Under the pieces are notes generated by a model, which was not told the origin of the DNA, did no database searches, and worked only from the letters and a program-made list of their open reading frames with translations. Below, one piece after another: positions 8,501-32,624 of a stretch of DNA of 38,839 nt. The first letter of the stretch is position 1. The number at the start of each line of letters is the position of its first letter. The stretch is from Candidatus Omnitrophota bacterium (GTDB taxonomy: Bacteria > Omnitrophota > Omnitrophia > Omnitrophales > Aquincolibacteriaceae): positions 1 through 38,839 of the forward strand of contig JAQTOZ010000006.1 of NCBI GenBank assembly GCA_028713205.1, read 5' to 3'. The position numbers and the translations under genes are program-made.

Positions 8501-11500
8501 GTGCTACGGCTTGCCGGACCTTCAAAGCATTTCGGGCAGTCATCGGAATTTCCCTTTCGGATTTGTCGATATGGAGATAGAGCTTTGGTCCGCCGACGGC
8601 AGCGTGAATCTTAAGCACCCCTTCGTCATCAGGCGTATGTGTTATCGTGTAATGAACGTCGTCGTTAACGATTTCAAAATAATCCCCCAAAGGAATGGTA
8701 TTTAAATCTTCGGTGACCCGGCTATCACTCGAAGAGGCCAGTATCGCAATGTCCGAAACCGTCAGCCGGTCTCCCGCCGGAACGGGTTGAGTCGACCGCT
8801 CCAATGCCATCATTCTCTTAACTTTGTCATTCACGTCCCGTGCGCTTCGGGTTTCGGAGCGGCCCGCGGCACCCACAAGCGCCTGCCCCAGGTTTTCCAT
8901 CCTTTCGAAATCGGCGGCCGGAATACCCAAGGTAAGCGCCATCGAATAAACGTAGATTTCGTAATCGACCGGAACCGGCCAGCGGATAGACCCAATCCCG
9001 ATTCCGATTTGCCGGTTAAATCCGCCTGCCCGTTCAACGTTTTGTGTCCGCCTGACCCGGATTGCCAATCGGTTCAACTGCCGCATTCTTGCGTCGATGG
9101 CTCTGGTCATCCGTTGATCCATGTCTTCGATGGTGCGCGCCTCAATGATCTGCTGCCGCAATTTTTCAACCGTCATTTCATACTGCTTTTTTTCAAACGT
9201 CTCCCGGAATATGAAATCCGGGACGTCCCCTTTGGCGGTAGGCCGCGCCCTGAACAAAACCTCAATGTCCCTGAGATACCTCAGCTTGACCGAATCACGG
9301 ATGCGGTGGAACCTGTCCAGTTCTTGCTTGGCTTCGTCGTAAGTCATCTCACGGGGCGAACCCAGCGGCTGGGGCAGCATAACCTGCCGGTTAAAAGACC
9401 GCAATTTTTGGTACATCGCCGTCAGCATTTCCGATTTCAAATCATTCCAGTTCGTGGTATTCGTTTTATCAATGAAGGCAAGCAAGGCCGGCCTTTCTTC
9501 CGGAGCAAAATATCTGTCCACATCCTGCCGGTAAGCCGCTTTGGCATCTTCCAATAACTCCGCCTGACTTTTGACCCGGGCCGGCTGCGGCTCAGTTTTG
9601 CCGCGGACTTCCGAACGGGCGGACAAGGCCCGCCTTAAAGCCCGGAGCATGGCGATATCTTCCTTCGTATTTTCAAGACCGATCAATTGATCGGCTCCCC
9701 GCTCCCATGCCGCCACAATGTCGACCACTTCCATAACACCGTAATACTGTTCAAGCGTCAGTTGAATCTCACGGCCGAATTCATAGACAACCCCGCCCTC
9801 GTTTTCCAGAACATCGGGGCTTGCTCTCTGGTTCTCTGGCTCTTGGAGAATGCGCCGGCCTTCTGCAATCAATCTGTCGATTTCCGATATCAACCCATCG
9901 ACATCACGCGTAGCGAGCATGCCTTCGTCCCGAAGCGCAACATATGGATTCTTCTTCCGCACCTCCGAACGCCCGGAGGCGGACAAGCACCGCTTCGGGA
10001 ACCAAATCACGACTTCGCGGCCGCGGCCTTCCTGATCACTTAAATGAATAACGTTGTTCTCGGTACTCACGGGAAGCTTGGCCACTTTGAGAATCCCTGT
10101 TAAGGCATCGTTTCGAATCGAACCGGGCAATGCCGCAGCAGGATTGGTGTCACCGGCAAATTGCGTGCGCATATCATCCCACGAACTCACTTCGGCCCCG
10201 GGAATCGTGCGAAGTAAAACTGCCACGGTTTTGGTTCCCGGCGTCTCAAAATCCTTGCTGAACCGCATATAAAAACCATTGGCCAAGATGACGGGTTTGT
10301 TCCAATGTTCCCTGGGAATTCTCGGATCTTCCGGCAATCTGAACGCATAGCTATAAACCCCTTCGGCAGCCTTCATGACTCCCCGGGGCGTCTTGTAATT
10401 CGATCCCATTCCGCGATTCCATAATTCGAGCACCAAATCATCCGCCACATCATCGGATAAACCGAATTTCGTTTTCATGTCCAGCGCCGCCACAACCAGA
10501 TCTTCGCTGTAAGCAGTTCCCAATAAGGCAGGCAATTCGTTTTCGTATGCATGTCTCAATGCAAACCTTTGATTCGCGTCCATCGCTCCGATACCGCCCT
10601 TGGCGACTTTATAAATATTTTCGTAATGCCGCGGGATAATACCAAGACGGGCAATCGCGCTGCCTTCATAAACGGCAATCTGATCGGCGTAATATCCGCG
10701 CTTCTCGGCCCGGTCTAATATCTCTTTGACGGTTTCTTCATAAGGCTGTCCCGCAGGCGGTTTGATCAGAAGGACACCACCGTCCGGATGCTCAACATCA
10801 TAAGGTTCGGGGTTCAGCTGAACGGTTTCCGTAATCGTTGTCATACCCGACAGCCACGAAATCTCGGGCGCGGTTGATTCATGGATTTTTTCCGCTAAAA
10901 GCGCCGTATTTTGCCGCTGCGTTAGAGCTGCAAGAATTTTTTCCGTTTCCCAAAATAGTTTCGCGTACTCTTGATGAGACTTCCGCAAACTTGCCAGGAC
11001 CCTCCCCAGGCCGTCCGTTAACTCGGTAAATTGTGTCGGTTCGATGAGTGAATAGACCGTCCGATCGCCTTCCTCATAATGACCTTGCACACTCCGGACA
11101 ATTTCCCTATACAATCCATCCAGGGAAGCCTTTCCGCTCACCCAATCTCCCGTCTTTTTCCTAAGCGCAGTCCTTCTCGCTTGGAGATCGCGCACCACAG
11201 GGCTTTGCCTTCCCAAACGGCGGGACAGCTCGACCAAATTTTGCGCCAACAGCGTCGTGATCCGCCAAAAACTTTCCTGTTTCAATTCATCAAACGCCTT
11301 GCGTTTCGCCCAAATTTCAGACCACTGATACCGCAAAGCTTCGAAATCGCTTTCCGGAGACATGCCCTCCATCACGTCAATGGCTTGTTGCGTCTCGGCT
11401 TGTGCTTTTTCCCAAAAATATTCCTCGACCTCCTCGAATTTTTCGGGCGTATAACCGTAGCCACGATCGCCCCATGTTTGTCCGGTCCAGTCATACGGAG

Positions 11501-14291
11501 AAGGAAGCCTTGTCAGATTGCATATCCCCCGAACACGATCCCAGGTAACATCGAAAACAAAGGGGGTTTCAATCCGGTGAAGCAATTTTTGAGGTTCGGG
11601 GATGAGCGCGCTCCCGATTTCCACCTCGGCATGAAGAATATCCCGCATGCCGGCTCCGTCCCGGCGGACCTGAGTCAGGCGCAGGCTTAAATCGTTGCCG
11701 TGGTCGTAAACTTCCATCATGGGCGCTCTCAGAATAACTTCTTCCGGTTTCAGGCTGGAATAATAGCTCATCATTGCATTCTCGGCTGCCTTCGTAAAGC
11801 GGACGGCGTCCGTCGGAATGACCAAACTGTGAGAGACACCCAGAACAGGCACCACAACGTAACGTGCGTCTCCTTCCGGCGATTTCTTGCCAGGGATTAA
11901 ATCACTGCGTTCGAACTGCGGGGCTTCTTGTTTCGGGCCGGTCTTTTGCCGGTTCAACAACGCCACCACCGCTTCGATTTGGGTCACCGGAATTCCTTCG
12001 GCACGTCCGGTACTCAAAATTTGCTCCGCCCATTGTTCGGGCGTGCGCACTTCGGAACGATTCGGAGATGGAGACACATCCTGCAACCGTTTGACCGCTG
12101 ACAGAGCATGCTCGATCGTGCGGAGGGCGCTTGCCCACCGCCGCGCCTCGATCTTCGGATTCATGCCTCGCGTATCCAGCCAAAACCTCAACGCGGGCAT
12201 CGTGATACCGTTGATTGTCTCAGACGACAAGCTGAACCGGAACCGGTGGGTCTTTCCCATCACGAGCGTAGTATCTTTCTCGCGATGCAAAAATCGTTCG
12301 ATTTCGGCACGGTCCCGCTGCCCATGGAATATCCCGTTGAAAGCCATTAATAACAGGAACAAGTCATCAACTTTTCCGGCGAAATCAACCGTATGCTGAT
12401 CGTTAGCGAATTTCATGGCAATGCCCATACGCACTTCCGAGCGCCCGACAAAATGACCGCCCGCAAATTCGTTGGCCGAAAAACCGATGCCGAAGACTTG
12501 TGCGAAACGGGATCGGTCCAGTTGTTCTAAAAGTTCACGGACTTTTGCCGGTCTTTCCTGAGCAACGACATTGCGCACTGTCCGGCGCATGGTCTCGATG
12601 GCGCCGCCCGTTAACTCGGGATCGCGCACACCGATTAAAGTTGCCGGGTCTTCGCGGAGGGCGTTCTCAATCGTCGCCTTCGCGGGAGTTTTCGGAGCTG
12701 CGGGCTTCCCCAGAAAAGCCCGCAGATAAATCTCGTGATCCTTTTTACTGACTTCGGTCATGCGCGGCGTGATTTGAACGTAGGCATAGCCTGCTTTTAA
12801 AATTCTTTCTTTGACACCTTCCGAGTGAAAACCGCCGGTGACCAGGATGGCTTGTTTTTGATGTTTTTCGACAAGTTTTCCGACCGCATTCTGGACAAGC
12901 CAGTCTTCGCGACGGATGGCACCACGGTAAAACCCCATAGCCTTTTTAAACCAAAGATCCTGATCCGGTTGAATCAGATCTTGCCGGCTCAGAAATTGCG
13001 CGAGGGCCGTAGGACGAATCCTTCGTTGATGCTTTTGAATCGTCAAATATTCCGTGCGGGACAGTTCCAGACGGTAGAGTTTTTCGAGCAAACGATAATC
13101 GAAAAGCACTCGAAGCAGTTTCTTTTCCGCCTTCGTCCGGACGCACGCAAAAAACAATCCCTTGGTCAGACGGTCGATTTCGCGGTTAAACCCTTCTGCT
13201 TCCAGCTCTTCGGCCATGATCAGGTATTGTAAATAGGCTTTAAAATTCGGATAGGCGGCAGTCAGCGGGAAATTCTCCGGCAATTTGTCCATGAGCCGTT
13301 CGACGATCAAACGGACCGGCGTGCTCCTGTCGGCACGGGGCACACGGCCGCCATCCCTCTTCGCTGTGGCCGTGATCTCTTCGAGTTTCCGGATAATTTC
13401 TTTGGTCTCATCATGATTTGAATAAATCTCCAACCCCTTGAAAAAAATTTCCTTTTCCTTTTCGACCTTGGCGTCATCCAGCTTCCCTTCCATTTCGCGG
13501 AGTTTGGTATAACGAACCAAGATCGGCCACCGTTCCTGACTCCAAAATGAATTCAAATCTGTTTTTAAATGCTCCGCGGCCTGGCGGCGCAGAATCTCAA
13601 GCCAGCTCTGATGCGACAGGCTCCCTTCGCGATAAGCCTTCTCGCGATAGAGCAGGCTCCTGAGATCTTCCGAGAATTCGGGATAAGCAGCCTTTTCCCA
13701 GGCAACGTAAAACTTCTTGAGGAACCCATTTAAGGCTTCCTGGCGAAGCATCACCGATTTAAAGGCTTCCCGGTTCCGGCGATAGGCTTCAAAGTCCTCG
13801 ACGCCCCAGCCTTCGGCCTTTTCCCGAGCTTCGATCAGATAAGCCTCCGCACCGGTAAGCTCGCCTTGCCGGATGAGGGCATCGATGATTTTCTGATTCA
13901 GCTCCTGATCGCGAGGGAAAAAGCGGAATAACTCCGGCCTGAGTTTTCGGGCAGCGCCTTCCAGGAAAAGGAGTTGCCTGCCCTGCCGTTCACCGAGGAA
14001 GGTGAGGAGTTTTTGAATATTTTTTTGTGCCTCGTAATGTCCGTGAGACGTCCGGATATGCACCAACAGTTTATCGGACCCGCCGGGTAAAACCTGTTCG
14101 CTGATTTCACCGAGTTCATAAGGAATCTGTGCATCAAAAGAGGCTGTCGGATTTAAAGAAGGCGCCAAAACAGGCTGGGCATTCGCAGAGGCCGGGAAGG
14201 CCAGATTCGTGACAAAAAAGGTCACGGCCGTCAAAGCACAAATAAATTGTTTGCACCGTTTGTCGTGAAAAAAACCCGTGATCATCATCAC
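5589..14291 (-). CDS. 2900-residue exported multidomain protein: ChaN/EreA-like, NDK-like and UDP-sugar pyrophosphorylase-like domains
   Basis: The frame is uninterrupted. The listed start is GTG; the ATG at codon 3 (14285) fits the GAGGG ribosome binding site better. Residues about 12-38 form a signal peptide ending ASANA. Residues about 70-515 are the shared domain (HGHYEAQ, H83/H85; E111; TGGFHSEG, H489). Residues about 1165-1435 resemble nucleoside diphosphate kinase: K1177 in LLIKPP, T1382 in TNPAAALPGSIR, R1393, and catalytic-type H1416 in NVIHLSDQEG followed by REVVIWF. An insertion of about 100 residues splits the domain and the usual KPD is KPP. Residues about 2180-2640 resemble the UDPGP/UAP1 family, with LAGGRG (2287-2292) and PKG (2300-2302). 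RSE[VLT]R occurs at residues 617, 745, 1441, 1559, 1811, 2177 and 2668. Remaining segments are mostly helical and unrecognised. Export combined with two nucleotide-using domains is paradoxical, because the periplasm has no NTP pool. Confidence 0.88.
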   Translation of the reverse strand: MMMITGFFHDKRCKQFICALTAVTFFVTNLAFPASANAQPVLAPSLNPTASFDAQIPYELGEISEQVLPGGSDKLLVHIRTSHGHYEAQKNIQKLLTFLGERQGRQLLFLEGAARKLRPELFRFFPRDQELNQKIIDALIRQGELTGAEAYLIEAREKAEGWGVEDFEAYRRNREAFKSVMLRQEALNGFLKKFYVAWEKAAYPEFSEDLRSLLYREKAYREGSLSHQSWLEILRRQAAEHLKTDLNSFWSQERWPILVRYTKLREMEGKLDDAKVEKEKEIFFKGLEIYSNHDETKEIIRKLEEITATAKRDGGRVPRADRSTPVRLIVERLMDKLPENFPLTAAYPNFKAYLQYLIMAEELEAEGFNREIDRLTKGLFFACVRTKAEKKLLRVLFDYRLLEKLYRLELSRTEYLTIQKHQRRIRPTALAQFLSRQDLIQPDQDLWFKKAMGFYRGAIRREDWLVQNAVGKLVEKHQKQAILVTGGFHSEGVKERILKAGYAYVQITPRMTEVSKKDHEIYLRAFLGKPAAPKTPAKATIENALREDPATLIGVRDPELTGGAIETMRRTVRNVVAQERPAKVRELLEQLDRSRFAQVFGIGFSANEFAGGHFVGRSEVRMGIAMKFANDQHTVDFAGKVDDLFLLLMAFNGIFHGQRDRAEIERFLHREKDTTLVMGKTHRFRFSLSSETINGITMPALRFWLDTRGMNPKIEARRWASALRTIEHALSAVKRLQDVSPSPNRSEVRTPEQWAEQILSTGRAEGIPVTQIEAVVALLNRQKTGPKQEAPQFERSDLIPGKKSPEGDARYVVVPVLGVSHSLVIPTDAVRFTKAAENAMMSYYSSLKPEEVILRAPMMEVYDHGNDLSLRLTQVRRDGAGMRDILHAEVEIGSALIPEPQKLLHRIETPFVFDVTWDRVRGICNLTRLPSPYDWTGQTWGDRGYGYTPEKFEEVEEYFWEKAQAETQQAIDVMEGMSPESDFEALRYQWSEIWAKRKAFDELKQESFWRITTLLAQNLVELSRRLGRQSPVVRDLQARRTALRKKTGDWVSGKASLDGLYREIVRSVQGHYEEGDRTVYSLIEPTQFTELTDGLGRVLASLRKSHQEYAKLFWETEKILAALTQRQNTALLAEKIHESTAPEISWLSGMTTITETVQLNPEPYDVEHPDGGVLLIKPPAGQPYEETVKEILDRAEKRGYYADQIAVYEGSAIARLGIIPRHYENIYKVAKGGIGAMDANQRFALRHAYENELPALLGTAYSEDLVVAALDMKTKFGLSDDVADDLVLELWNRGMGSNYKTPRGVMKAAEGVYSYAFRLPEDPRIPREHWNKPVILANGFYMRFSKDFETPGTKTVAVLLRTIPGAEVSSWDDMRTQFAGDTNPAAALPGSIRNDALTGILKVAKLPVSTENNVIHLSDQEGRGREVVIWFPKRCLSASGRSEVRKKNPYVALRDEGMLATRDVDGLISEIDRLIAEGRRILQEPENQRASPDVLENEGGVVYEFGREIQLTLEQYYGVMEVVDIVAAWERGADQLIGLENTKEDIAMLRALRRALSARSEVRGKTEPQPARVKSQAELLEDAKAAYRQDVDRYFAPEERPALLAFIDKTNTTNWNDLKSEMLTAMYQKLRSFNRQVMLPQPLGSPREMTYDEAKQELDRFHRIRDSVKLRYLRDIEVLFRARPTAKGDVPDFIFRETFEKKQYEMTVEKLRQQIIEARTIEDMDQRMTRAIDARMRQLNRLAIRVRRTQNVERAGGFNRQIGIGIGSIRWPVPVDYEIYVYSMALTLGIPAADFERMENLGQALVGAAGRSETRSARDVNDKVKRMMALERSTQPVPAGDRLTVSDIAILASSSDSRVTEDLNTIPLGDYFEIVNDDVHYTITHTPDDEGVLKIHAAVGGPKLYLHIDKSEREIPMTARNALKVRQAVARLIAKAHPELVLPGRKAGVPSWITDSQQETVIVRLRAGSNDLRLADPILYLALQRLKIYVPDQIFKQAQSAVNAIVKDYWAQGNVLDERQAYEAIKFFYGLVSQDQKIADALIRVIRVRLYVLTDQYAKAAGEADVLVNLATGGVGGPADDLTLKAIVGMLFADYELLGQISGTVAQRNRRLKLTLSILLRTEEYVRVLTHCARQSPFFAKYEAQATRDDLTALHRMRLGLTARLTDFKRRWPDIYRSEVRPLEARRADAEAMLREYGQEHVLEHWNELDDAGKGRLLTRIEKINWKLLADLIEFAKSGAQTEIPSEFVPSRPVDHDELAPAVRAKGRETLQWEGPNGEVLTAGIMLAGGRGSGVEYNHPKGMYPIMDLSGESFYQTLIDRWKSLSRYYGHRKMMPLIVMTSEDTHEETLAYFREQNWFGEEEDRFLFVKQQELPVVDKDTYKVILKDKETIDVGGAGHGDAFDYVLQLEHVQAWLRKHGVKYVQYFAVDNVLNPIGDEAFIGQHVLSESMPRVPGEAHISIGMWPLENPDERAAHIVYVPEPDAADGLRREVYDYDKAPAAMKAQSTHGHPSFQIVTWETLRGSTPLRFRISKNKKPVIDSHGVAHDNTFKFESASTEKRSRGAILAFPRLFLAPLKYKEGKSPVDTPSDVRKKIAQFWRERLAKIHVTADETVMLQLPWVAAYMNDGEFRQAWTEHGLPDDLAAGVYGYWVDGNWQLHTIASAPARSELRAQSRAYLNPKLNEFLTDRQKQELVGYLGARGITEQGFIGTTVTVMDGVLPVSLGSLARPFLTPFFGEPRPVEFGKDIDAAKRLLSTNDMALGDVFILSSGFALSEGGLEAVLKLYPAIPIIIIAPEESRRQFLAENYPRVVVAKDVTELQSKLAEMQVPAVSALPLKRKVTAITSSEELELASRLKQISDQVTIMTSKMMERFKQFVGQQVQDLMTALRGRMQVSRAA

Positions 14292-14602: not shown

Positions 14603-16693
14603 ATGAAACCGAAGGGCTTATGGTTATTGATGGTAGGCATGCTTTTGTCCGTTCCGGCAGGTAGCCTAAGCCGGGCCCAAGAAGCAGAGTCTCTTTCCAT
14701 CGCGAATTTGGCGATCCCCAAATCTCTGGGAAAGGTCGAAGAGCGTATCCCGGGGACCACCCAACGCTGGGTGATTGAAATCCAAGACGTCCATTCCCAG
14801 TTTACCGCTCAGGAGAACATCGCCGCCATTGTGGATCATTTAAACGCTGTCTACGGAATCAAGACCGTTGCCTTGGAAGGCGGCTGGTCCGAAACCAGTT
14901 TTCCCCAGAGCTGGGGGCTGCCCACATCACGTGAGAAAAACATGCTGGCGCGCGCGCTTTTGGAAGACGGGCATATCGGCGGACCGGTTTACGCGGCCCT
15001 GTTCTCAAAAACGCCCATCAGCATCATCGGTCTTGAAGAAACCGGCCCCTATCTTGAAAACGTGAACCTCTATACCGAGTACTTAAAACAACGCGATGAT
15101 ATCAAATCTCAGTTGGATCAGCTGTCCAAACAAATAGCTTCCGAGAAAGACAAAGTGTTTAACCCGGACCTGCGGCGTTTTGACATGGCCTTGTCCGAGT
15201 TCCGGGAAGGCAACAAAGCCGAAAAATTTCTGCCGGCGCTTGTATCCATGGCGGAAGCCAAAGGGATCAAGATGACATCGTTCAAGCAAATCGTCCTTTT
15301 CAAAAAGATCCTAGGAATCGAGAAAAATCTGGATAAAAAAAGGCTGGATGGTGAGGCCTCACGACTCATGAAGGACTTCAAGGGATCGCGACTCACTTTC
15401 GAAGAGTTGCTGCGCAACGGGAAATTCCCGAAGGAAAAACTGCAATATTATCCTCAAACCCACAGATATCTCGAACTCATAACCTCGCAGGATAAAGTTT
15501 CCCATCAAGAGTTTTTTGACGAAATCGAAAAAGTGATCGGGCTCACCAAAGACAAACTCTTCGCCAACGAGGCCGAAAGAACCTTGGATGCCAAATCCGA
15601 ACGGTTTCTGAATTCCAAGAAAATCATTACCTTTCAGGCGACCCCCGATGATTTGAAAAAGCACGCGAATGAAAAAGCGGCAACGGACGCGGACATCCGC
15701 GAAGACGGCTTGGATAATCCTTTCAGCCTGGCTTTGAGATTTTACGATCTGGCCCAGAAGCGCGACAGCATCTTCTACCAAAAGATCACCGGAGATCCTC
15801 GTCTCGAGGGCGATATTGTCGTGGTCACGGGAGGATTTCACACCGAAGGCCTGAGTCAGCAATTGAAAGACGCCGGCATTTCTTACATGGTGATTCGTCC
15901 CGAGATCGGGACCGAAGCCACAAGCGACGAGCTTTATTTCAAACGGCTCCAAGACAATGTCCCGCTTGTCCAAACCGTCTCGCCCGAAAAAAACCGCTAT
16001 GCTTTCCTTGATGCGCAATTCTCAAAAGGCGTGGCCGCTCTGAGGAAATCCAAAAACATTACCGCCGCAGAGACCATCGCAATCGATTACGGACGGACGG
16101 ACGCACCCGACGAAGCAAGTACCGTTCCCGTAACACTTGGACTGAGCGAATTCGCGGCCATGGAACCCATCGAACGGCAGAGCAAGGTCGAGGAAGTTTG
16201 GAATAGCACGCGAACGTCTGAACCGCCGGGCGCCCGCAAAGAGACAAAACCCAGACGGCCCACGGTCATCATTTTAATCAAGGCATCGGTACTCAGCCGA
16301 TTATTGAAAACGGATGAGGGGTTGACCATCTGGCAGCAAAAAGTCGCACCGGACCGTGACAACCGTATCGGGCTGATTCTGGATGTGCCCGATTATCCGG
16401 ACGCCACAATCGGAACGAGTGCACGGGTCGATCGCATTCCCGGGGCCGATTATGATGTCGTGGCCAATAAACGGTATGGGCCGGCGAAATCCAGCCAAAT
16501 TGTCGTCATCGCAAATGATTATGACGGCACCTTGGTCCGAAAACTTCCCGAAGATGCCGTCTCTCTCCTGCTTGCACGCCCTTTGGTGGAAGGCCTGCTG
16601 CGCATTTCCATCGCGCCCGAGTTTTTGGAACGGTTTCGTGCCGAATTGCGACGTTTCCTTGAAGCCAACGGCCTCCTCGAACGCGCTGCGTAA
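14603..16693 (+). CDS. Exported ChaN/EreA-like domain protein, third paralogue
   Basis: The 696-residue protein starts at ATG with GGGGAG 10 nt upstream. Residues 1-25 form a signal peptide. The shared domain has EIQDVHSQFTAQENI (H64), VALEGG (E92) and VVTGGFHTEG (H413), aligning with the proteins at 14-3781 and 5589-14291 over about 350-450 residues and with the same spacing logic. The helical stretch between the first and last motifs is charged and variable, as in the paralogues. Residues about 545-696 are a separate domain that I do not recognise. No clear RSEVR motif is present; RTSEPPGAR near residue 535 lies at the equivalent position after the shared domain and may be a degenerate relative. 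The gene is transcribed divergently from the giant gene. The enzymatic role is unknown; location in the periplasm or outside the cell is inferred from the signal peptide. Confidence 0.85.
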   Translation: MKPKGLWLLMVGMLLSVPAGSLSRAQEAESLSIANLAIPKSLGKVEERIPGTTQRWVIEIQDVHSQFTAQENIAAIVDHLNAVYGIKTVALEGGWSETSFPQSWGLPTSREKNMLARALLEDGHIGGPVYAALFSKTPISIIGLEETGPYLENVNLYTEYLKQRDDIKSQLDQLSKQIASEKDKVFNPDLRRFDMALSEFREGNKAEKFLPALVSMAEAKGIKMTSFKQIVLFKKILGIEKNLDKKRLDGEASRLMKDFKGSRLTFEELLRNGKFPKEKLQYYPQTHRYLELITSQDKVSHQEFFDEIEKVIGLTKDKLFANEAERTLDAKSERFLNSKKIITFQATPDDLKKHANEKAATDADIREDGLDNPFSLALRFYDLAQKRDSIFYQKITGDPRLEGDIVVVTGGFHTEGLSQQLKDAGISYMVIRPEIGTEATSDELYFKRLQDNVPLVQTVSPEKNRYAFLDAQFSKGVAALRKSKNITAAETIAIDYGRTDAPDEASTVPVTLGLSEFAAMEPIERQSKVEEVWNSTRTSEPPGARKETKPRRPTVIILIKASVLSRLLKTDEGLTIWQQKVAPDRDNRIGLILDVPDYPDATIGTSARVDRIPGADYDVVANKRYGPAKSSQIVVIANDYDGTLVRKLPEDAVSLLLARPLVEGLLRISIAPEFLERFRAELRRFLEANGLLERAA

Positions 16694-16947: not shown

Positions 16948-18210
16948 ATGCACCCATCGCCGTCCTTACCCGATTTCAACTCCGGCACATACCTCACAGA
17001 AGTATTCTTGATCGATCTCCTGCGAGCAAACTCCCAAAGGGATTTTGAGACCGTTCTGGCAAGCTACGAAAACAAAACCCGCTTCATTCACTGGCAAACC
17101 CTTAGCAGTTTTGGATTTAAGACTTTTCTGCCTCTGTATTTAGAAGCAACGGCCCTATTCCCCAATTTTAAAATTCCGCCGGCAATACGATTTGTCATTC
17201 AACAAAGATACCTCATGACCGCTATTAAAAATGAGCAGATCAAACGAAGCATGATCGAATTGGCACAAGAATTCGAAAAAGCCAAGATTGATTTGATTTT
17301 TCTAAAAGGGGCTGCCCTTTTGACAACGATCTATAAGGATGACCCCGGATTAAGGCCCATGGAAGATATCGATTGCTTGGTGAAAAAGAACGATTTGCCG
17401 CAAGCGGAAAATATATTAAAAAAGCTTGGCTACCGGGAAGATTACGAAAAATTATCAAGCATAAAACATCTAAAGCTTTCACGCGATTTATTTACGAAAC
17501 AGGGTTGCCATTATATGTATTTAAAAGGGCAGGTTTGTGTTGAGCTACACTGGGATATCACGCCCTCAAAATGCTCTCCGGTTCTATTAAACAAATTATT
17601 TGAAACATCGGTCAAAACCCGTATCGACGAATCCGAAATACACATTTTAAGTCCCGAAGCACAAGTTTTCATGGCCTGTCTGAATTACTTGAAGGATTCA
17701 CTGGCCCTGTTCTCTAGCGATTGGGCCTGCTCAAGCGAAGGCATCAACAAAAATTTTTATTACACGATTTTCCTGCTCTGCGAAATCAAGAAAATCCTGC
17801 GGTTCTACCAAAACAACATTTGCTGGAATCAACTTCCGGTTTTCACGGAGGCAACTCATACCAACTATGCTGTCCTGTCCCTGTTATATCTGTCCCAGAA
17901 AATAGCGAATGCTCAGCTCTCCGAGGAGGTCAGCCATATCATCAATCGGTACGGCCCATCAAAGCGATTCCAACGGATGTGTAAAACTATAGCTCATACG
18001 GATTTCGTAAGATTGTTCCTCACGCGAGATCTGCTTCGGGGGTTTACTTTTCTGCCAACGTTTTGGGGACATCCGTATCGCACAGCCAAAAACTTTTATA
18101 ACTCCCTATGGCCTTATTTGTTCGTCTATCACAAACGAACCTATAATGTGATTAAAATAATAGTGCGCATCTTGAACTTTATGGCTAGAATCATTAGACG
18201 GTTTGCCTGA
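16948..18210 (+). CDS. NTP_transf_5-type nucleotidyltransferase family protein (RiPP/surface-polymer locus)
   Basis: The 420-residue protein contains FLKGAALLTTIYKDDPG followed by LRPMEDIDCLV, the core of the uncharacterised nucleotidyltransferase family PF14907: a LKG segment, then the metal-binding D-x-D of the polymerase-beta-like fold (DID). The C-terminal half is helical. The family's substrate is unknown, but members commonly lie beside PqqD-like chaperones, HPr-kinase-like proteins and RiPP precursors, as here. I chose the ATG at 16948; a TTG at 16915 extends the frame by 11 residues without homology or a ribosome binding site. No Shine-Dalgarno sequence is visible. It opens the AT-rich plus-strand run and probably begins a transcription unit. 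Confidence 0.75.
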   Translation: MHPSPSLPDFNSGTYLTEVFLIDLLRANSQRDFETVLASYENKTRFIHWQTLSSFGFKTFLPLYLEATALFPNFKIPPAIRFVIQQRYLMTAIKNEQIKRSMIELAQEFEKAKIDLIFLKGAALLTTIYKDDPGLRPMEDIDCLVKKNDLPQAENILKKLGYREDYEKLSSIKHLKLSRDLFTKQGCHYMYLKGQVCVELHWDITPSKCSPVLLNKLFETSVKTRIDESEIHILSPEAQVFMACLNYLKDSLALFSSDWACSSEGINKNFYYTIFLLCEIKKILRFYQNNICWNQLPVFTEATHTNYAVLSLLYLSQKIANAQLSEEVSHIINRYGPSKRFQRMCKTIAHTDFVRLFLTRDLLRGFTFLPTFWGHPYRTAKNFYNSLWPYLFVYHKRTYNVIKIIVRILNFMARIIRRFA

Positions 18211-18244
18211 CCTCGATGGCCGGTTTGGTTAAACATGATATTTG

Positions 18245-18321
18245 CACTAGGTTCTGTTGACATTTGCCCAAAAAACTTCCTCCCCCTTGATGGGGGAAGG
18301 AAATGTCGACAGAGCCTGGTG
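18245..18321. repeat. 77-bp imperfect inverted-repeat element, MITE- or terminator-like
   Basis: Arms of about 20 bp (GGTTCTGTTGACATTT near 18250 against AAATGTCGACAGAGCC near 18301) match with about three differences. A second, nested hairpin CTTCCTCCCC/TGGGGGAAGG fills the interior. It sits between the nucleotidyltransferase and the PqqD-like gene. The terminal inverted repeats and size suit a miniature inverted-repeat element; a strong intercistronic RNA hairpin is the alternative. No clear target-site duplication is visible. Confidence 0.6.
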
Positions 18322-18361
18322 AATACCCAAAAATGATTCAAATTGTGAAAAGGAGTTGGAA

Positions 18362-18643
18362 ATGACGTTGAGTCAACGCTACAAAATCAATAAGGATCAA
18401 GCCGTTCATCGAATTATTGCCGGAGAAGCGGTCATGCTGCAACTGGAGAGCGGTTACTACTACAGTCTGGACAAAATAGGAACCGAGATTTGGAAAGCCC
18501 TCGACGAAAATAAATCCGTCGGTGAAATTATAGATTCTCTTAAAGAAGCATACGACGTATCCGATAAGCGGCTTGAAAATGACGTTTGGGCACTGTTGAA
18601 AAAACTGGAGAAAGCGCAGCTTATCAAAGCGATTAAAGATTAG
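18362..18643 (+). CDS. PqqD-like peptide chaperone (RiPP recognition element)
   Basis: The 93-residue protein matches the PqqD family in length and pattern: GEAVMLQLESGYYYSLDKIGTEIWKALDENKSVGEIIDSL, then a helical C-terminus with DVWALLKKLEKAQLI. PqqD-type proteins form a small winged-helix-turn-helix fold that binds the leader of a ribosomal precursor peptide and delivers it to a partner enzyme such as a radical SAM protein. The ATG at 18362 has AGGAG with 6-nt spacing. A radical SAM gene follows after 53 bp and a small Lys-rich peptide 1.1 kb downstream carries a leader-like motif. Direct binding to that peptide is inferred. Confidence 0.85.
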   Translation: MTLSQRYKINKDQAVHRIIAGEAVMLQLESGYYYSLDKIGTEIWKALDENKSVGEIIDSLKEAYDVSDKRLENDVWALLKKLEKAQLIKAIKD

Positions 18644-18696
18644 TCTTTGATTCCATCATCTCATTATCTCATTCTATAAGATTAGCCTGCTAAATT

Positions 18697-19707
18697 ATGA
18701 TTAGTCTACGGAATAATGACTTGCTTCATCATTTCTTGAGGCATAAAGTTCCCCTAACGGCTTTTATTGAATTAACGAGTCGCTGCGATCTTAAGTGTAT
18801 CCATTGCATGCGCTCCAAGACTCCCTCGCCTGATCTGACCAAAAGCATCTGCCATAACTTGCTCGATCAATTAGCCCGGATGGGTACTTTGAATGTAACC
18901 TTTTCCGGGGGAGAACCTCTTCTGCACAAAGATTTTTTTGATTTAATAGCCTATGCCCGGCAAAAAAATTTTAACGTCAAAATCGCTTCAAACGGAATAG
19001 GATTCAATAAAAGCAATGTTCGCAGATTCAAGGCACTTCAACCGATAACCGTTCAGCTTAGCCTCTACGGCACCTCTCCGGCCCTCCATGATTTGATCAC
19101 CCGGACAAAAGGCTCCTTCAAAAAAGCCATACGGGCCATCCGTCTGCTGAAGGATTCGGGAATTTCCGTTTTGATTCACATGATAGTCTTGAAGGAAAAC
19201 TTCCATGAATTGGGAAAGATGAAAACCCTTGCAAAAGCCGAGGGCTGGAATTTTTCTTACGATTTTGTTCTTTATCCGAGGGACAATGGCTCCTTAGAAC
19301 CTTTATACCATCGTATTACCGGTGAGCAGCTCGGGTGTGCTGTTCGAAAGGGTTGGGTTCGTCAATCGAATTTCATCGTACCAAAATCAAGGTATGCGGG
19401 AACAACCAGGATCCTCGATTTAGCAACCGTCTCATGCCGGGTATCCCCTTCCGCCCAGGTCTTTCCGTCGGGGACTGTGCGTTTAGAAATTGGTAATTTG
19501 AGGCGGGACTCTTTTCGGGATATTTGGCTCAAATCCCCGGAGGTTCACGATTTGCGAAAGCTGAAAACCGATGATTTTGAATGCTCTCGATGCCGGCTCT
19601 ATCAACACTGTTCTTGGGATATCGGACTGGCATTCGCCGAGCACGGCAGTGTCACGGCAACGCCGGATGAATGGTGCCGATTCGTACGACAACTTGAATC
19701 AAAATGA
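18697..19707 (+). CDS. Radical SAM/SPASM enzyme, PqqE-like peptide maturase candidate
   Basis: The 336-residue protein has the canonical CX3CX2C cluster motif CDLKCIHC (C30, C34, C37) and the GGEP motif (71-74) of the radical SAM barrel. The C-terminus has a SPASM-like cysteine set: C near residue 248, then FECSRCRLYQHCSW and a final WC, suggesting one or more auxiliary iron-sulfur clusters. SPASM enzymes of this architecture typically modify ribosomal peptides, for example PqqE and sactisynthases. It follows the PqqD-like gene and precedes the 31-residue peptide gene, which makes that peptide its most likely substrate by context. Some SPASM proteins in surface-polymer loci act on other substrates. 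No Shine-Dalgarno sequence is visible before the ATG. Confidence 0.85.
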   Translation: MISLRNNDLLHHFLRHKVPLTAFIELTSRCDLKCIHCMRSKTPSPDLTKSICHNLLDQLARMGTLNVTFSGGEPLLHKDFFDLIAYARQKNFNVKIASNGIGFNKSNVRRFKALQPITVQLSLYGTSPALHDLITRTKGSFKKAIRAIRLLKDSGISVLIHMIVLKENFHELGKMKTLAKAEGWNFSYDFVLYPRDNGSLEPLYHRITGEQLGCAVRKGWVRQSNFIVPKSRYAGTTRILDLATVSCRVSPSAQVFPSGTVRLEIGNLRRDSFRDIWLKSPEVHDLRKLKTDDFECSRCRLYQHCSWDIGLAFAEHGSVTATPDEWCRFVRQLESK

Positions 19708-19744
19708 TCATTCTACGCTTCCGGATTTCTCCGGGGGTACAACT

Positions 19745-19764
19745 TCCTCTTTGATCAAAGAGGA
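19745..19764. promoter_or_regulatory. 20-bp perfect palindrome upstream of the small peptide gene
   Basis: TCCTCTTTGATCAAAGAGGA is a perfect dyad ending 21 bases before the peptide ATG. It could be a regulator binding site, or an mRNA hairpin that sets the level or 5' boundary of the peptide message relative to the radical SAM gene. Confidence 0.6.
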
Positions 19765-19785
19765 TAACCGCATAGGAGATCGACC

Positions 19786-19881
19786 ATGGCGGATGTCAAA
19801 AAGACAAATAAGAAAAAGAAAAAATACAAAACACCGACCCTGACGGTTTATACTGAGATCAAGAAAGTTAAGGGCTATTAA
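19786..19881 (+). CDS. 31-residue Lys-rich peptide, candidate RiPP precursor with YxxPxL motif
   Basis: The frame runs ATG to TAA with a strong ribosome binding site, AGGAG, 7-8 nt upstream. The product has 11 lysines, a KKTNKKKKK tract at 5-13, and YKTPTLTVY at residues 14-22. The latter matches the first half of the lasso-peptide leader consensus YxxPxLxxxGxxxxxTxG, which is bound by PqqD-type recognition elements. The peptide ends where such a leader would end (residue 31), so no normal core follows. It lies between a SPASM radical SAM gene and an HPr-kinase-like gene. Thr16, 18, 20 and 23 or the tyrosines are possible modification sites. Role inferred from context; a structural or regulatory small basic protein is the alternative. 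Confidence 0.7.
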   Translation: MADVKKTNKKKKKYKTPTLTVYTEIKKVKGY

Positions 19882-19933
19882 AGAGGACGCATCCATCAAC
19901 CATTTCCCCGATCTCGAAATTGGCAGGAGCCAA

Positions 19934-20896
19934 ATGAAATACCGGCGGGTATTGACTCATGAACACCTTCAGATCACCACGTCTACGAACAGCTTTCGCT
20001 TGCATCAGCTGATCCATAACTTTTTCGATTTTCAACGTTCCCCCCATTCGACACCTCAAATGAAGGTCAAGCTCTGCATCCAGATCATAAAAAATCGCAA
20101 CGATCAGTATATTTATCAAAGTCTGAACAAAAATAACCGCATTTTTTCATTCATGGACACACGCACCGTCCGTGTCACAACGGACCTGCGGACGAACACC
20201 GCAACGGCCCGGTTGCTCGAATTCGACGAGTCTTTAAAAGAAAGGATCCTTGACTTTGCCCTGATGCGGCCACTTTATCATATCCTCGGCCATCATGGTT
20301 TTTTCCATATGCATGCCTCCTGGGTCTCCAAAAACAATTCCTCGATTCTGATCAGCGGTCCCACCAATAGCGGTAAAAGCACCCTCGCTTTCGTTCTTGC
20401 CCAACACGGCTTCCAGATCCATTGCGATGATGACTGTTTTGTTAAAGCTTCGAATCGTCAAATTCATCTGATGCCACTTCCGACCAAAATGGGACTGAAG
20501 GAGACGGTTCTGAATCGTCATCCAAAGCTCGTGCGAAATACCGTAAAAAATTACTTGTATGGGGATAAAAAAAGGATTTCTTTAAAAAATATTCCGAATC
20601 ATCGTGTCCGTGACCTAGGAGAGCCGACCCGCATCGATATTCTATTCCCAAAATACAAAATCCGGGGGAATGCCGCTTTGAAACCCATTTCTAAAACAAA
20701 AGGATTAAAAAAATTAATCGGAGAATGCCTCTGCGCCTACCCCGAAAATGATTCCAGAAAAATGCTTTGGACCTTTTATTCTCTTGCCCAGAAAACGCGT
20801 TTTTTTGAATTGATTTACAATGATCAACATTTTGACCAAATTCCTGCCATCATGGACCAGCTTGATGGTGCCCTGAAAATTGACATTCGAAAATGA
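19934..20896 (+). CDS. HPr-kinase-like P-loop protein associated with PqqD/RiPP loci
   Basis: The 320-residue protein has an HPr-kinase-type core: MHASWV at 126-131, Walker A GPTNSGKST at 142-150 and an acidic CDDDC near 164-168, followed by a C-terminal helical region. The classical HPr kinase/phosphorylase signature and length differ, so it is not an HPr regulator of carbon metabolism. Related kinases in lasso-peptide and HPr-rel-A loci phosphorylate precursor peptides or work with PqqD-like chaperones. The ATG at 19934 follows AGGAG closely; the frame stays open further upstream without a good start codon. Its stop overlaps the next start by 4 bp (ATGA), indicating translational coupling to the B12-binding radical SAM gene. 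Confidence 0.75.
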   Translation: MKYRRVLTHEHLQITTSTNSFRLHQLIHNFFDFQRSPHSTPQMKVKLCIQIIKNRNDQYIYQSLNKNNRIFSFMDTRTVRVTTDLRTNTATARLLEFDESLKERILDFALMRPLYHILGHHGFFHMHASWVSKNNSSILISGPTNSGKSTLAFVLAQHGFQIHCDDDCFVKASNRQIHLMPLPTKMGLKETVLNRHPKLVRNTVKNYLYGDKKRISLKNIPNHRVRDLGEPTRIDILFPKYKIRGNAALKPISKTKGLKKLIGECLCAYPENDSRKMLWTFYSLAQKTRFFELIYNDQHFDQIPAIMDQLDGALKIDIRK

Positions 20897-22308
20897 AAAT
20901 ACTGCTCGTCCACCCTCAAATCAACAGCATTCCTGCATACAGCTACGGCATCGGGTATTTGATATCGGTTTTAAAAAGAGGCGGACATTCCGCCGACTAT
21001 TTTGTCCTTCAAGATTTAAGGGATATTCTTTTGCTGTACCAAACCGTCAAGGAGCAAAAACCGGACATTATCGGATTTTCCCTGTTAACCGCCGAAGCCG
21101 GTTATCTTGGTGATATCATCAAAGGAGTTAAAGAAATCTCGAGTGCTTTGATCGTATGCGGGGGTATACACCCTACCTTACAACCGGAATCTACCTCCCA
21201 AATTGATGGGGTGGATGCAATTGTGCGCGGCGAAGGAGAATACCCGTTGCTGGAACTCGCAAATTGCATGGAGAAGAAAGAAGGCTATTTCCATCTTAAA
21301 AACTTCTGGTTCAAAAAAAACGGGCAGATCATCAAAAATGATCTCCGCCCATTAATTGACCTGAATGAGCTGCCTCCCCCGGATAAAGGGATATTCTATC
21401 AACGCATGATCGATTTGGATTGGGGGACCAATCGGTTTATGTTCAACCGGGGATGCCCCTTTGGCTGTTCCTATTGCTCCAACTCAGCTTTGCAGATGTT
21501 ATACAAAAGCAAAGGGCCCTTTTGCCGGTTCTTAAGCCCGCAGAAGGCTATCGAACTGATCGATTTGGATTCAAAACGATTCAAATTTGATTTTATTTTT
21601 TTTGATGATGACATTATTGCCCTGGACAAAAATTGGTTTTATGAGTTTTTTGCTTTATACAAAAAACGATTTTCATATCCCTTCTGTTGCAACGTGCGGG
21701 CCGGCAGCGTCGATTCAGCCATGATATAATTGTTGAAGGAGGCGGGTTGTGCAGAGGTTGCTATTGGAATAGAACATGGAAACGAAAATTTCAGGCAAAC
21801 CATCTTAAATCGAAATATGGGAAATGATCTATTGGCCGAAACCGTTGAGCTCGTCAAACGGCACGGAATTAAAAAAATCAGCGGGCACGTGATGATCGGA
21901 CTTCCTTTTGAGAATACGGGACTATTTCTCGACACCGTCCGCTTATTCAGACGTTTAAAGATTAGCCCCATCAAATTCATCTATTCACCCTTACCGGGAA
22001 CAAGTCTTGGAACCATTTGCCGCGAAAAAGGCTGGCTATCGCAAGAAGCTTATTATTGCGATCGCATTCAGGCGGTCATCGATTACCCGACGTTCAGTGC
22101 GGATGAGATCCAATTATGCTTTGATGTCTTCTCCATTCTTTTACGTTTTCCATTTCTCCCTCTTAAACTACCGGGGATACCGACAAACTATTTGTTTCGG
22201 TTATACAAATTCATATTCAGCTTCGCGCTATTCGTAGAACATCGATTTTTCGCTGCGGATGGCCCTAACCATGCGGCAAAGGCCTACCTCCGTGCAAAAC
22301 CAGCATAA
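20893..22308 (+). pseudogene. B12-binding radical SAM protein gene interrupted by one in-frame TAA
   Basis: One reading frame of 472 codons carries a single ochre codon at 21727-21729. The first part has a cobalamin-binding-like domain (MKILLVHPQ to about residue 130, with PDIIGFSLLT and GGIHPTL) and the radical SAM motif CPFGCSYC near residue 195. The second continues without loss of frame as LLKEAGCAEVAIGIEHGNE, the standard barrel continuation, to the normal C-terminus. Homologues have a sense codon at the TAA. Every other codon looks intact, so a recent nonsense mutation, a strain variant or a consensus error is likelier than old decay. If functional, members of this superfamily perform methylations or rearrangements on polymers, lipids or peptides. 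Its 4-bp overlap with the HPr-kinase-like gene ties it to the peptide locus. Confidence 0.8.
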
Positions 22309-24771: not shown

Positions 24772-25773
24772 ATGCACAACGTCGATATCGTGATCGTAAC
24801 CTATAACGCGAAAGCAAAACTCGGAAGATGCATCCGCAGCATTCGAAAAAATACCCGTCATATTCCTTATACCCTGACAATTGTTGATAATCACTGCACG
24901 GATGGAACCTCTGATTTTCTTAAATCTTTAGGCGATATGAAAATCATAACGAGCAGAAAAAATCTCGGCTTTTCAGGTGGCGCTAATCTGGCCCTAAAAG
25001 CAACCTCCGCGAAATACATCGCATTGGTGGACGACGATGCCGAGGTGACTCAAAACTGGCTGAAAAAGTTATATCACCAAATCAACCAGAGACCCGATAT
25101 TGGTATCGTGGGATGCAAAATTATTTTTCCAGACCGCATGATTTTTTGCGCTGAGATTGAACTTAGCCCTGGATACTGCCATGCCATGGGACATGGGGAA
25201 AGAGATAACCGGCAAAGGGACTATATCAAGACCGTTGATGCTGTCTGCGGAGCCTGCTGGCTGATGAGAAGAGGGGTTATCAAAAAAATCGGTTTTTTTG
25301 ATGAACAATTCTTCCCATGCAAATACGAAGATTGTGACTACTGCTTAAGAGCGACGCGGGCAGGTTTTCAAGTCGTGTATGAGGGCAAGGTATCTATTAT
25401 TCATCATAATCTCAACCGTGACGGAAAAAGCAAAATCAAGGCATTAACAAAAAATCGCAGACTATTTATGCGAAAATGGAAAAATCTAAAAGATTTTGCA
25501 GCCACTCAAGAACATCTCGGCGGTGGTATCGATAACGGGTCTTCTAAAAACAAGTATTATTTATCCAGAGCTGTTGAATCTGTGCGGGATAAAAACTATG
25601 GGAGAGCGGTAAAACACCTTAGAGACGCAATCCGTTTTGATCCCTACAATCTGGCGGCGTCCTATTATCTTGCGATGATCTATAAAAAAACGGGGCAGTT
25701 GGATAAAGCTAAAACAGAAGCGTATAAATCACTGGCGATCTTCGACCATCCCCTCCTTGGTTCCATGGAGTAA
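24772..25773 (+). CDS. GT2-family glycosyltransferase with C-terminal TPR-like tail
   Basis: The 333-residue protein starts VDIVIVTYNAKAKLGRCIRSI, the GT-A nucleotide-binding start, then NLGFSGGANLAL and the metal-binding ALVDDDAEV, as in rhamnosyltransferase-like family 2 enzymes; DEQFFPCKYEDCDYCLRA provides the catalytic acidic ED region. Residues about 260-325 form TPR-like helices (SVRDKNYGRAVKHLRDAIRFDP, then LAASYYLAMIYKKTGQLDKA). The tail may mediate complex formation. GGGAG precedes the ATG. It is probably part of surface-glycan assembly together with the neighbouring transferases. Confidence 0.88.
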   Translation: MHNVDIVIVTYNAKAKLGRCIRSIRKNTRHIPYTLTIVDNHCTDGTSDFLKSLGDMKIITSRKNLGFSGGANLALKATSAKYIALVDDDAEVTQNWLKKLYHQINQRPDIGIVGCKIIFPDRMIFCAEIELSPGYCHAMGHGERDNRQRDYIKTVDAVCGACWLMRRGVIKKIGFFDEQFFPCKYEDCDYCLRATRAGFQVVYEGKVSIIHHNLNRDGKSKIKALTKNRRLFMRKWKNLKDFAATQEHLGGGIDNGSSKNKYYLSRAVESVRDKNYGRAVKHLRDAIRFDPYNLAASYYLAMIYKKTGQLDKAKTEAYKSLAIFDHPLLGSME

Positions 25774-28431: not shown

Positions 28432-29523
28432 CTATTTTTCAAAAACCGGACAATGGCTGCATGCGCTCGGCATGATGCCCTTTGCAATGTCTTTCCTGAT
28501 TGATGTGATTTTATCATTATTCCAAATAGTGTTAAAATCACTTCCATTAAGATTGCCCATCACGCAGTTCTCCCCTCTCATATGGCAGCAGACCCATACA
28601 TCGCCATTTAAATGAATGAGCGCATGCCGCCAGGGTCTGGTGCAATAATATTTTTTACGCTGCTTTTGGCGTTCGCAACCGCGTCCGGGGTTTGGCTGAA
28701 TTGCTTTCAGAATTTCATCGATCATGCTGGAAAACCTGATCGATAATTGATCGGCCATAACTTTTGCTGCCCTCATATTTTCTATAAATAACGATGAGCT
28801 CGTGTCAATCATCTGTGCGGCATAATCGAAATTAAAGGAATCAGATTTGACACAATATTGCACAGGCATCTGACCCAAAACATGGAACTCCACTGCATTT
28901 GCCTCCACCTCTTGAGCCAGTCGCACAAAATCGACAACTTCAGCCAAATTTTCGTTCATGATTGTCATATTGATCCATAATTCCGGATAGTCGACGCCCA
29001 GTTCCTTCTTTATCTCGAATAAAAGCTTTAAATTATTTTTAATTGCGCAAAAATAATCATCACGGCGGATTTTTTTATAGGTTAGCGGATTTGCTGCATC
29101 CAGCGAGACACTCAGGCGGTTCAGCCGATGTTTTATCATCTGCAGAATCTTTTTCTTATCGAGCAAAATCCCGTTGGAGGTAAAAGAAATATGCGCTTGT
29201 GGTGAAAATCGATCCATTAATGAAAAAAGGGCTTCTTGCATGAGGGGTTCGCCAATGCCATGGAGAGAAACCGATTTGATTCGCGGAAATAGAGGCTTTA
29301 ATTTTTCAATCATTTCTTGAGGGATGAATGCTACCGGCGCCATTGTCGCCAAGTGTCGACAACACATCACACAAGGAGGATTGATATTGCAAGTCGTGGT
29401 CGTTTCGATCTCGATCTCTTCGGGCATTGACGGAAGCCGGGGATTATCTTGCCCTGATCTCCTAAAAAAAGAAGCCATTCCGGCCCTTATCGCCCGTGCA
29501 GAAAACAAATTATGAAATGGCAT
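28432..29523 (-). CDS. Radical SAM/SPASM protein with CX5CX2C motif, paralogue B
   Basis: The 363-residue protein has IEIETTTTCNINPPCVMCCRH, where the cluster cysteines are spaced CX5CX2C instead of CX3CX2C. LHGIGEPLM replaces GGEP. The C-terminus has YYCTRPWRHALIHLNGDVWVCC, then GENCVMGNL and ACSHCPVF, a SPASM-type set. It is a tandem paralogue of the gene at 29995, and the last 40 codons are nearly identical at DNA level. GGAGG precedes the ATG. SPASM enzymes of this kind often accompany glycan or peptide modification loci; substrate unknown. The membrane-protein gene follows directly. Confidence 0.85.
   Translation of the reverse strand: MPFHNLFSARAIRAGMASFFRRSGQDNPRLPSMPEEIEIETTTTCNINPPCVMCCRHLATMAPVAFIPQEMIEKLKPLFPRIKSVSLHGIGEPLMQEALFSLMDRFSPQAHISFTSNGILLDKKKILQMIKHRLNRLSVSLDAANPLTYKKIRRDDYFCAIKNNLKLLFEIKKELGVDYPELWINMTIMNENLAEVVDFVRLAQEVEANAVEFHVLGQMPVQYCVKSDSFNFDYAAQMIDTSSSLFIENMRAAKVMADQLSIRFSSMIDEILKAIQPNPGRGCERQKQRKKYYCTRPWRHALIHLNGDVWVCCHMRGENCVMGNLNGSDFNTIWNNDKITSIRKDIAKGIMPSACSHCPVFEK
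28481..28605. repeat. 125-bp block nearly identical to 30044-30168
   Basis: The two blocks differ at 2 of 125 positions while the flanking parts of the paralogous genes differ much more. This indicates recent gene conversion or unequal crossover restricted to the 3' end. Confidence 0.85.
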
Positions 29524-31598: not shown

Positions 31599-32624
31599 TC
31601 ACACGCAAAGTACCCGCTGCTGTAAGAGACACCTCGAACAATACTCAGGCAAATGGCCGCTTCGCAAACGGCTTCTGAATGCTTCGTATTCTCTCGAACG
31701 CCAAATATCCAAGAGGTTCTTTTTGTGGATATTACCGAAGACAACTCTTGGATGAACGTATTTTCGGCCAAAATACCAATAGGGTCTTTCATAGGACAAC
31801 AGGGGGCAAGGAGATACGAATCCGTTCCAATGAACGACGCAACCTTGCATTTCGCAAACAAAATAAGGGATGGCTGTTAAAGACGGGAGCTTTAATTTTA
31901 TCTTGTATCGCGATGCCTTCTGCCGCATATCCGCAAATATTTTTGCGCATTTTTTGTCGACTTTCTCACCGGGCCGGACGTACAATTTCTTTCCTGCCAT
32001 TGCCCGGCTGTAAGGCTCTAAACCATTGATCGATACATTTTTGATTTCAAGCGTTTTGGCCAAATCCAGAATTTTGGGTAACTCTTGAACATTGATTTTG
32101 CTCGCGACCGCTAACAACTCAACCATCGGAAGTGCATTTTGACGAGACTTCTGCTGTCTCACGAGTTCTTTGATATTGGTGATGGCTTTTTCGAAGTTTG
32201 CGCCCTGCCGGATTCTTTCGTATGTCTTTTTCGTCGCTCCGTCCATCGAAACAGATATCTGATGGACTCCCGCCTTTAATAACTGAGCAATCATGAAAGG
32301 CGTTAATAACATACCATTGGTCACAAGACGAATTCTAATCTTTCGATTAATCGTCTTTGTAAATTTGATGCATTCAATGATTTGATTGTTTAATAATGGT
32401 TCGCAGTTTGCCTGAAGTTCTATGTTTTTGATTTTCTTCAACACGGCCCGAAGCATCTTGAAGGTTTCAAGGGACATGATCCCTTTTTCGCCATACCATT
32501 TTTGGAACGAACACATTTTGCAATTTAATTGGCACAACCCGCTAATGTCAACATTGAGACAACTCAAAGCGTCCCTTTTTTTATAAAATGTTACGTGATT
32601 CGATAGTGATATGTTTTTTCCCAT
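31599..32624 (-). CDS. Radical SAM/SPASM protein
   Basis: The protein of 341 residues from the chosen start has DISGLCQLNCKMCSFQK, a canonical CX3CX2C motif, and ELQANCEPLL in place of GGEP. The C-terminus has YFVCEMQGCVVHWNGFVSPCPLL and YCSRCLLQQRVLC, a SPASM-type pattern. The frame opens at 32672, but the ATG at 32624 has GGAG 8 nt upstream and removes an unconserved Arg-rich stretch, so I prefer it. It shares the CVVHWNG-FVSPCPLL style with the gene at 23641 but is not a close paralogue. Substrate unknown; context is the surface-polymer region. Confidence 0.82.
   Translation of the reverse strand: MGKNISLSNHVTFYKKRDALSCLNVDISGLCQLNCKMCSFQKWYGEKGIMSLETFKMLRAVLKKIKNIELQANCEPLLNNQIIECIKFTKTINRKIRIRLVTNGMLLTPFMIAQLLKAGVHQISVSMDGATKKTYERIRQGANFEKAITNIKELVRQQKSRQNALPMVELLAVASKINVQELPKILDLAKTLEIKNVSINGLEPYSRAMAGKKLYVRPGEKVDKKCAKIFADMRQKASRYKIKLKLPSLTAIPYFVCEMQGCVVHWNGFVSPCPLLSYERPYWYFGRKYVHPRVVFGNIHKKNLLDIWRSREYEAFRSRLRSGHLPEYCSRCLLQQRVLCV

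Follow-up and report, generated by a model that had tools for sequence, protein, structure and literature searches.

What could a bacterium make from a peptide of 31 residues that is encoded between a radical S-adenosylmethionine (SAM) enzyme and a kinase, and that has almost no core? The question is raised by nt 16948-22308 of contig JAQTOZ010000006.1 (C115 in our numbering) from a 3.1 Mb genome of Candidatus Omnitrophota bacterium, assembly GCA_028713205.1; the whole contig of 38,839 nt was analysed and is called the window below. A sequence-only reading, made without database searches, had proposed that these genes serve the chaperone-guided modification of a ribosomally synthesized and post-translationally modified peptide (RiPP), and homologous loci support this proposal well. 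We consider it quite probable that the locus belongs, in a short-tail form, to a RiPP family found across Omnitrophota, guided by a RiPP recognition element (RRE), which joins a SPASM radical SAM enzyme to a gene set like that of linear polyphosphorylated peptides (LPPs), and that its nearly coreless peptide is modified.

The locus and its homologues

Pfam and NCBIfam matches, together with the open reading frame (ORF) calls, bear out the gene order of the sequence-only reading: an NTP_transf_5 protein (16948-18207), a discrete RRE of the PqqD family (18362-18640), a SPASM radical SAM peptide maturase (18697-19704), the 31-residue precursor-like peptide (ORF 19786-19878, or to 19881 with its stop) and an HprK-like kinase (19934-20893, or to 20896 with its stop), all on the + strand and in a single operon-like run. 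The peptide, MADVKKTNKKKKKYKTPTLTVYTEIKKVKGY, contains Y-K-T-P-T-L, that is, the leader motif YxxPxL of lasso and pyrroloquinoline quinone (PQQ) type; lasso, LPP and PQQ-type RREs recognize [Y/W]xxPx[L/V/I/F/A] (PMC13381572).

PqqD-type RREs are present in 132 of 384 sampled Omnitrophota genomes. For comparison we used 80 loci around PqqD or NTP_transf_5 matches, 8 around relatives of the kinase, and a second locus from the same genome, C191; gene calls followed a simple ORF rule, and annotation relied on profiles built up from the window's proteins. Protein scans of genome and viral contigs for close relatives added only one Omnitrophota contig, which the phylum search had returned as well. 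Most of the fetched loci hold a kinase and a radical SAM enzyme. Specifically, a neighbourhood analysis of the PqqD/HprK pair over the 89 loci with annotated core genes found both in 57, joined by a radical SAM enzyme in 52 and by an NTP_transf_5 protein as well in 41. The 52 loci with PqqD, HprK and radical SAM include 36 with a motif peptide, 28 with ABC transporter genes, 27 with a SipW-like S24/S26 peptidase and 7 with a B2-like transglutaminase-fold protease. One or other peptidase occurs in 34 of the 52, and the claim that a leader protease is absent thus holds for the window copy and fails for the family.

The sequence-only reading staked its peptide on recurrence in homologous loci, and the peptide does recur. 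Among short ORFs that lie close to the core genes in the same orientation, a Pro at exactly +3 from a Tyr or Trp is found in 40 of 69 loci, while every other offset between -10 and +10 is found in 5-18 loci and distant short ORFs show no such spike. Counted by ORF, the YxxP motif is present in 50/169 short ORFs close to core genes as against 29/639 elsewhere. The commonest arrangement (21 peptides) is radical SAM - peptide - HprK, as in the window, and a radical SAM gene upstream with HprK downstream is the position of most motif peptides in the relatives.

We aligned 58 peptides from 47 loci; this set includes additions made by eye, and the tests quoted here use the mechanical set. A Cys follows the leader in 39 of the 58. 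A C-terminal Ser closes 25 of the 50 mechanical motif peptides and 74 of 758 other short ORFs, a difference with p~1e-11, which overstates independence because related peptides are counted singly.

Some of these loci have unusual architectures. L019 (10356-11277) and L020 (9380-10334) have five and four YxxP peptides in tandem, respectively, between the radical SAM and HprK genes; these peptides (YKKPKLLKFSKVKRIQGGSIVDVPSVPI and similar) have near-identical leaders and variable cores. A single 420-aa protein at L094:5762-7024 (+) contains both a SipW-like signal peptidase domain and an HprK-like kinase domain. An S24/S26-type peptidase fused to a GNAT acetyltransferase is encoded at L120:12404-13366 and in relatives, a cluster that is found in 16 loci, with the fusion checked in L120 only.

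The 31-residue peptide

The ORF of the window peptide has a positive codon score, both other frames contain stops, and a Shine-Dalgarno-like AGGAG lies a few bases upstream. Just 5' of this ribosome-binding site is a perfect 18-bp inverted repeat, CCTCTTTGATCAAAGAGG (19747-19764, + strand), predicted to form a hairpin (RNA fold of 19705-19800, z -2.3), and possibly controlling expression of the precursor. The lasso_cyano leader profile gives a weak match to the peptide (E 0.005).

The peptide stops where the cores of its relatives start: the core is approximately GY, and there is no Cys. Aligned at YxxP, it falls one residue short of the Ser that the L019/L020 peptides have at position 19, and position 19 from the Tyr is also that of the LPP phospho-Ser when the published consensus is counted from its Tyr (alignment by eye). 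A frameshift into a hidden core beyond the stop was considered and rejected: frame scores are unremarkable, and the start and ribosome-binding site of the kinase fit in place.

The enzymes

The RRE (PF05402, E 1e-19) has the lasso PqqD chaperone as its best NCBIfam match (E 1e-18, below that model's cut-off), and its nearest solved structures are the lasso RRE TbiB1 (E 6e-11) and the paeninodin-type RRE PbaB1 (9x90, E 6e-8). Its residue D74 aligns with D70 of LppB, which hydrogen-bonds the leader Tyr, and Asp occupies this position in 40 of 45 RREs from YxxP loci. Covariation of this residue with the leader Tyr or Trp shows a trend in the expected direction, on few Trp loci.

The radical SAM protein (PF04055/PF13186, E 2e-24 / 1e-4) has the CxxxCxxC motif, which is invariant across 40 relatives, and the SPASM cysteines. 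It groups with the peptide-associated radical SAM enzymes of L019 and L020 (support 97/83, 35-36% identity).

The kinase matches Hpr_kinase_C (E 1e-5, below the Pfam cut-off) and HprK_rel_A (E 2e-12, also below cut-off), it has profile matches to HprK structures, and its AlphaFold2 model (mean predicted local distance difference test score, pLDDT, 83) has the HprK/PEPCK kinase fold, with a Foldseek match to PEPCK at E 2e-8. The His, the Gly-rich loop with GKS and the Asp (H127, G142, G147-K148-S149, D165) follow the pattern of BsfK. The nearest relatives are the kinases of L017, C191 and L018; in a search of 47 genomes of the same order, no homologue was found beyond the window's own genome.

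The NTP_transf_5 protein (PF14907, E 6e-38), LppN/PsmN-like in context, carries a conserved KGA...DID motif, and its AlphaFold2 model (pLDDT 79) resembles the ANT(2'')/LnuA nucleotidyltransferases (Foldseek E 2e-4).

A short-tail subtype and the second locus

Six loci, the window copy included, form a short-tail subtype whose peptides end 18-24 residues after the motif Tyr; in the five others (L017, L021, L022, L136 and C191) the tails measure 20-24 residues. The C-terminal Tyr recurs in L022, the remaining short-tail peptides ending in LS, TA or QP. By eye, the L017 and L021 peptides match the His and Phe positions of the LPP consensus.

Downstream of the locus, at 24772-25773 (+), profile matches identify a family 2 glycosyltransferase (GT2) with a tetratricopeptide repeat (TPR) tail. 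Strong homologues occur in 4 of the 6 short-tail loci and in 0 of 41 others (p 8e-5), a link that is suggestive only, because some of the loci entered the set through their similarity to the window kinase.

The C191 locus (L007/L008, 3235-20283) contains two PqqD, two HprK and two NTP_transf_5 genes, a B12 radical SAM enzyme, a RimK-like ATP-grasp protein and a SipW-like peptidase. It also encodes a 48-aa YxxP peptide at 15818-15964 (minus strand).

A proposed pathway and its alternatives

Of the pathway proposed here, our data establish the set and conserved order of the genes, the motif, the bias towards a C-terminal Ser and the folds, while its chemical steps and their order we infer. The PqqD protein would clamp YKTPTL of the 31-aa peptide and so bring the C-terminal end to the SPASM enzyme. 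In most of the family, that enzyme would act on a core with Cys. The HprK-like kinase would place a phosphate on a Ser, in most cases the last residue, and this phosphate would be elaborated by the NTP_transf_5 protein. Release of the product would fall to an ABC exporter and a peptidase of SipW-like or B2-like type. On balance it seems likely that family members combine radical-SAM modification of the core with Ser phosphorylation. For the window copy the most likely target would be a Thr or the C-terminal Tyr, and the linked GT2 protein might then add a sugar; since the core is here reduced to about GY, a local peptidase may be dispensable.

Several observations weigh against this pathway for the window copy. 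The peptide has no Ser, and published mutants speak against Tyr as an acceptor, since BsfK takes Thr but not Tyr and LppK takes neither; the phosphoryl or nucleotidyl mark proposed for this peptide is therefore doubtful. Neither a SipW-like peptidase nor an exporter is encoded in the window. No close copy of the locus was found among the 47 genomes of the order. Finally, the B12-binding radical SAM gene that closes the run (20893-22305, or to 22308 with its stop, + strand) is present as the sequence-only reading had it, but not intact: its frame stops at a TAA (21727-21729) and then continues in frame (278 + 192 aa). The TAA may be either a real nonsense change or an assembly error. An intact relative lies at C191:10653-12005 (29% identity); the gene belongs to the run, and its role in the peptide pathway is uncertain.

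Such features would also be expected of a decaying copy, a relic whose peptide no longer has its core, with the C191 locus as the working set of this genome. The in-frame stop, the peptide without Ser and with almost no core, and the missing peptidase and exporter all fit this, as does the fuller content of C191 with its duplicated genes, SipW-like peptidase and longer peptide. However, the NTP_transf_5, PqqD, radical SAM and HprK genes are all intact with their catalytic motifs, short tails recur in the five other loci, and the peptide ORF has a positive codon score. We regard decay as unlikely.

A different view of the short tails is that these peptides stay whole, a hydroxyl residue near the C-terminus priming the addition of a phosphate, a hexose and then a surface glycan by the linked glycosyltransferases. 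The short-tail peptides have a hydroxyl residue at or near their ends, several glycosyltransferases adjoin the window locus, and the TPR-GT2 gene marks the subtype; there is also a precedent in pseudomycoidin, where the nucleotidyltransferase homologue PsmN is required for the hexoses on phospho-Ser (PMC9266682). Against this stand the lack of Ser in the window peptide and the way the loci were collected, which leaves the GT2 link not independent. We know of no polymer-linked peptide of this kind, and a leader-only carrier is distinctly unlikely in our judgement. The same holds for a wider scheme that would unite all these loci in one Omnitrophota RiPP class, in which an RRE-delivered peptide would receive radical-SAM chemistry and a sugar-decorated C-terminal phosphate, the short-tail branch serving as an uncleaved, almost coreless primer for a surface glycan: a speculative idea with little chance of being right as a whole.

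The combination of PqqD, SPASM enzyme and GT2 also recalls mycofactocin, and the SPASM enzyme might act on the C-terminal Tyr of GY to yield an excised, glycosylated residue. The radical SAM protein resembles MftC (E 9e-37, below cut-off), MftF is the best NCBIfam match of the GT2 protein (E 5e-18, far below cut-off), and L022 shares the C-terminal Tyr. But the remaining short-tail peptides have other ends, several other SPASM families are equally similar to the window enzyme, and to our knowledge mycofactocin loci contain no kinase; such a small-molecule route is improbable. That the peptide is a chance ORF and the enzymes are independent parts of a surface-polysaccharide region, as a short ORF in a glycosyltransferase-rich region might suggest, is hardly credible, being already largely refuted by the offset spike and the conserved order in dozens of loci, and further opposed by the RRE Asp at the Tyr-binding position.

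If the RRE-guided pathway is correct, a large and mostly uncultured phylum has widespread peptide products that join radical-SAM chemistry to phosphorylation. The precursors can be named and the acceptor is predicted (the C-terminal Ser), hence heterologous expression could test the proposal. The LPP idea would also reach beyond Bacillota, and these peptides would be linked once more to surface-polysaccharide genes.

Neighbouring genes

Several glycosyltransferases, recognized by Pfam, lie alongside the locus. A macrolactam synthetase (Asn-synthetase-like cyclase) is absent from the window, as the sequence-only reading stated, Asn_synthase matches being found only on other contigs of the genome; no B2 leader peptidase was found in the window either. 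Elsewhere in the window, three consecutive radical SAM/SPASM-like genes occupy 28432-29523, 29995-31086 and 31599-32672 (minus strand), the first two being duplicates with 68% identity. Three large proteins, encoded at 2-3781 (minus), 5589-14291 (minus) and 14603-16693 (+), have a common N-terminal region (for example VHIQDAHSNYEAQ / IEIQDVHSQFTAQ) without a Pfam match, and the one of 2900 aa contains a UDPGP-like stretch and repeated RSEVR tags.

Comparison with known systems

The locus has the marks of an RRE-dependent RiPP: a discrete RRE of PqqD fold, and a short precursor whose RRE-binding motif is conserved across homologous loci. It has no core Cys for the thioether bonds of sactipeptides and ranthipeptides. 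The phosphorylated lasso peptides (paeninodin, pseudomycoidin, Bsf) share with it the RRE and a YxxP/WxxP leader, an HprK-like kinase with the same motif and, in psm and bsf, a nucleotidyltransferase. The kinase target in paeninodin and pseudomycoidin is the precursor's C-terminal Ser (PMC9266682), the residue favoured in the Omnitrophota relatives. The window differs in having a radical SAM enzyme, and neither the macrolactam cyclase nor the B2 peptidase of a lasso locus.

Among radical-SAM-containing systems the closest relative by profile is the SynChlorMet cassette (NCBIfam TIGR04248-04251), compared on ScmC, ScmD, ScmE and ScmF only. Its HprK-like ScmC, PqqD-like ScmD and SPASM radical SAMs ScmE and ScmF are all among the profile matches, with scores of 38, 27, 99 and 85 bits against cut-offs of 125, 100, 400 and 400, respectively; our literature search found no paper on it. 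The HPr-rel-A system likewise pairs an HprK-related kinase with a PqqD-like protein, and again the scores (47 bits for TIGR04352, 20 for TIGR04353) fall below the cut-offs of 200 and 35. Mycofactocin and PQQ loci resemble the window in directing a PqqD-type RRE and a SPASM radical SAM to a short peptide, mycofactocin also with a glycosyltransferase. They differ from it in that the window has a kinase and an NTP_transf_5 protein, and there is no family-level match (MftC 127 bits against a cut-off of 265, MftF 65 against 280).

The LPPs of Bacillota, first reported in 2026, combine RRE, HprK, NTP transferase and a SipW-like peptidase without a cyclase (PMC13381572, May 2026). The window shares the discrete RRE, the HprK-like kinase, the NTP transferase, the YxxP leader and the lack of a macrolactam cyclase; polysaccharide genes surround both, and many Omnitrophota relatives have the SipW-like peptidase and exporter, the peptidase also occurring in C191. 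The window copy itself differs in having no SipW-like signal peptidase I (SpI) for the leader and no exporter, and its peptide departs from the consensus YxxPxVLxHQxIxFETxxS: it has YxxPxL and the Ile at +11, without the His, Phe and Ser. The family differs in its SPASM radical SAM, a constant partner that lies outside the LPP core set, in its Cys cores with a C-terminal Ser (LPPs have a core Ser3), and in its host, LPPs being described as restricted to Bacillota (PMC13381572).

In the open-access literature we found no paper that brings together HprK, a radical SAM and a precursor peptide, and a paper on Omnitrophota secondary metabolites describes no such loci. Our occurrence figures for the radical-SAM version cover Omnitrophota; other phyla were not searched at depth. 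The claim of a new combination must accordingly be divided: an RRE with HprK and an NTP transferase in the absence of a cyclase is already known from LPPs, while the SPASM radical SAM as a constant partner, cores that contain Cys and the wide occurrence in Omnitrophota are new with respect to that literature, and mark a widespread and apparently undescribed branch of the LPP family.

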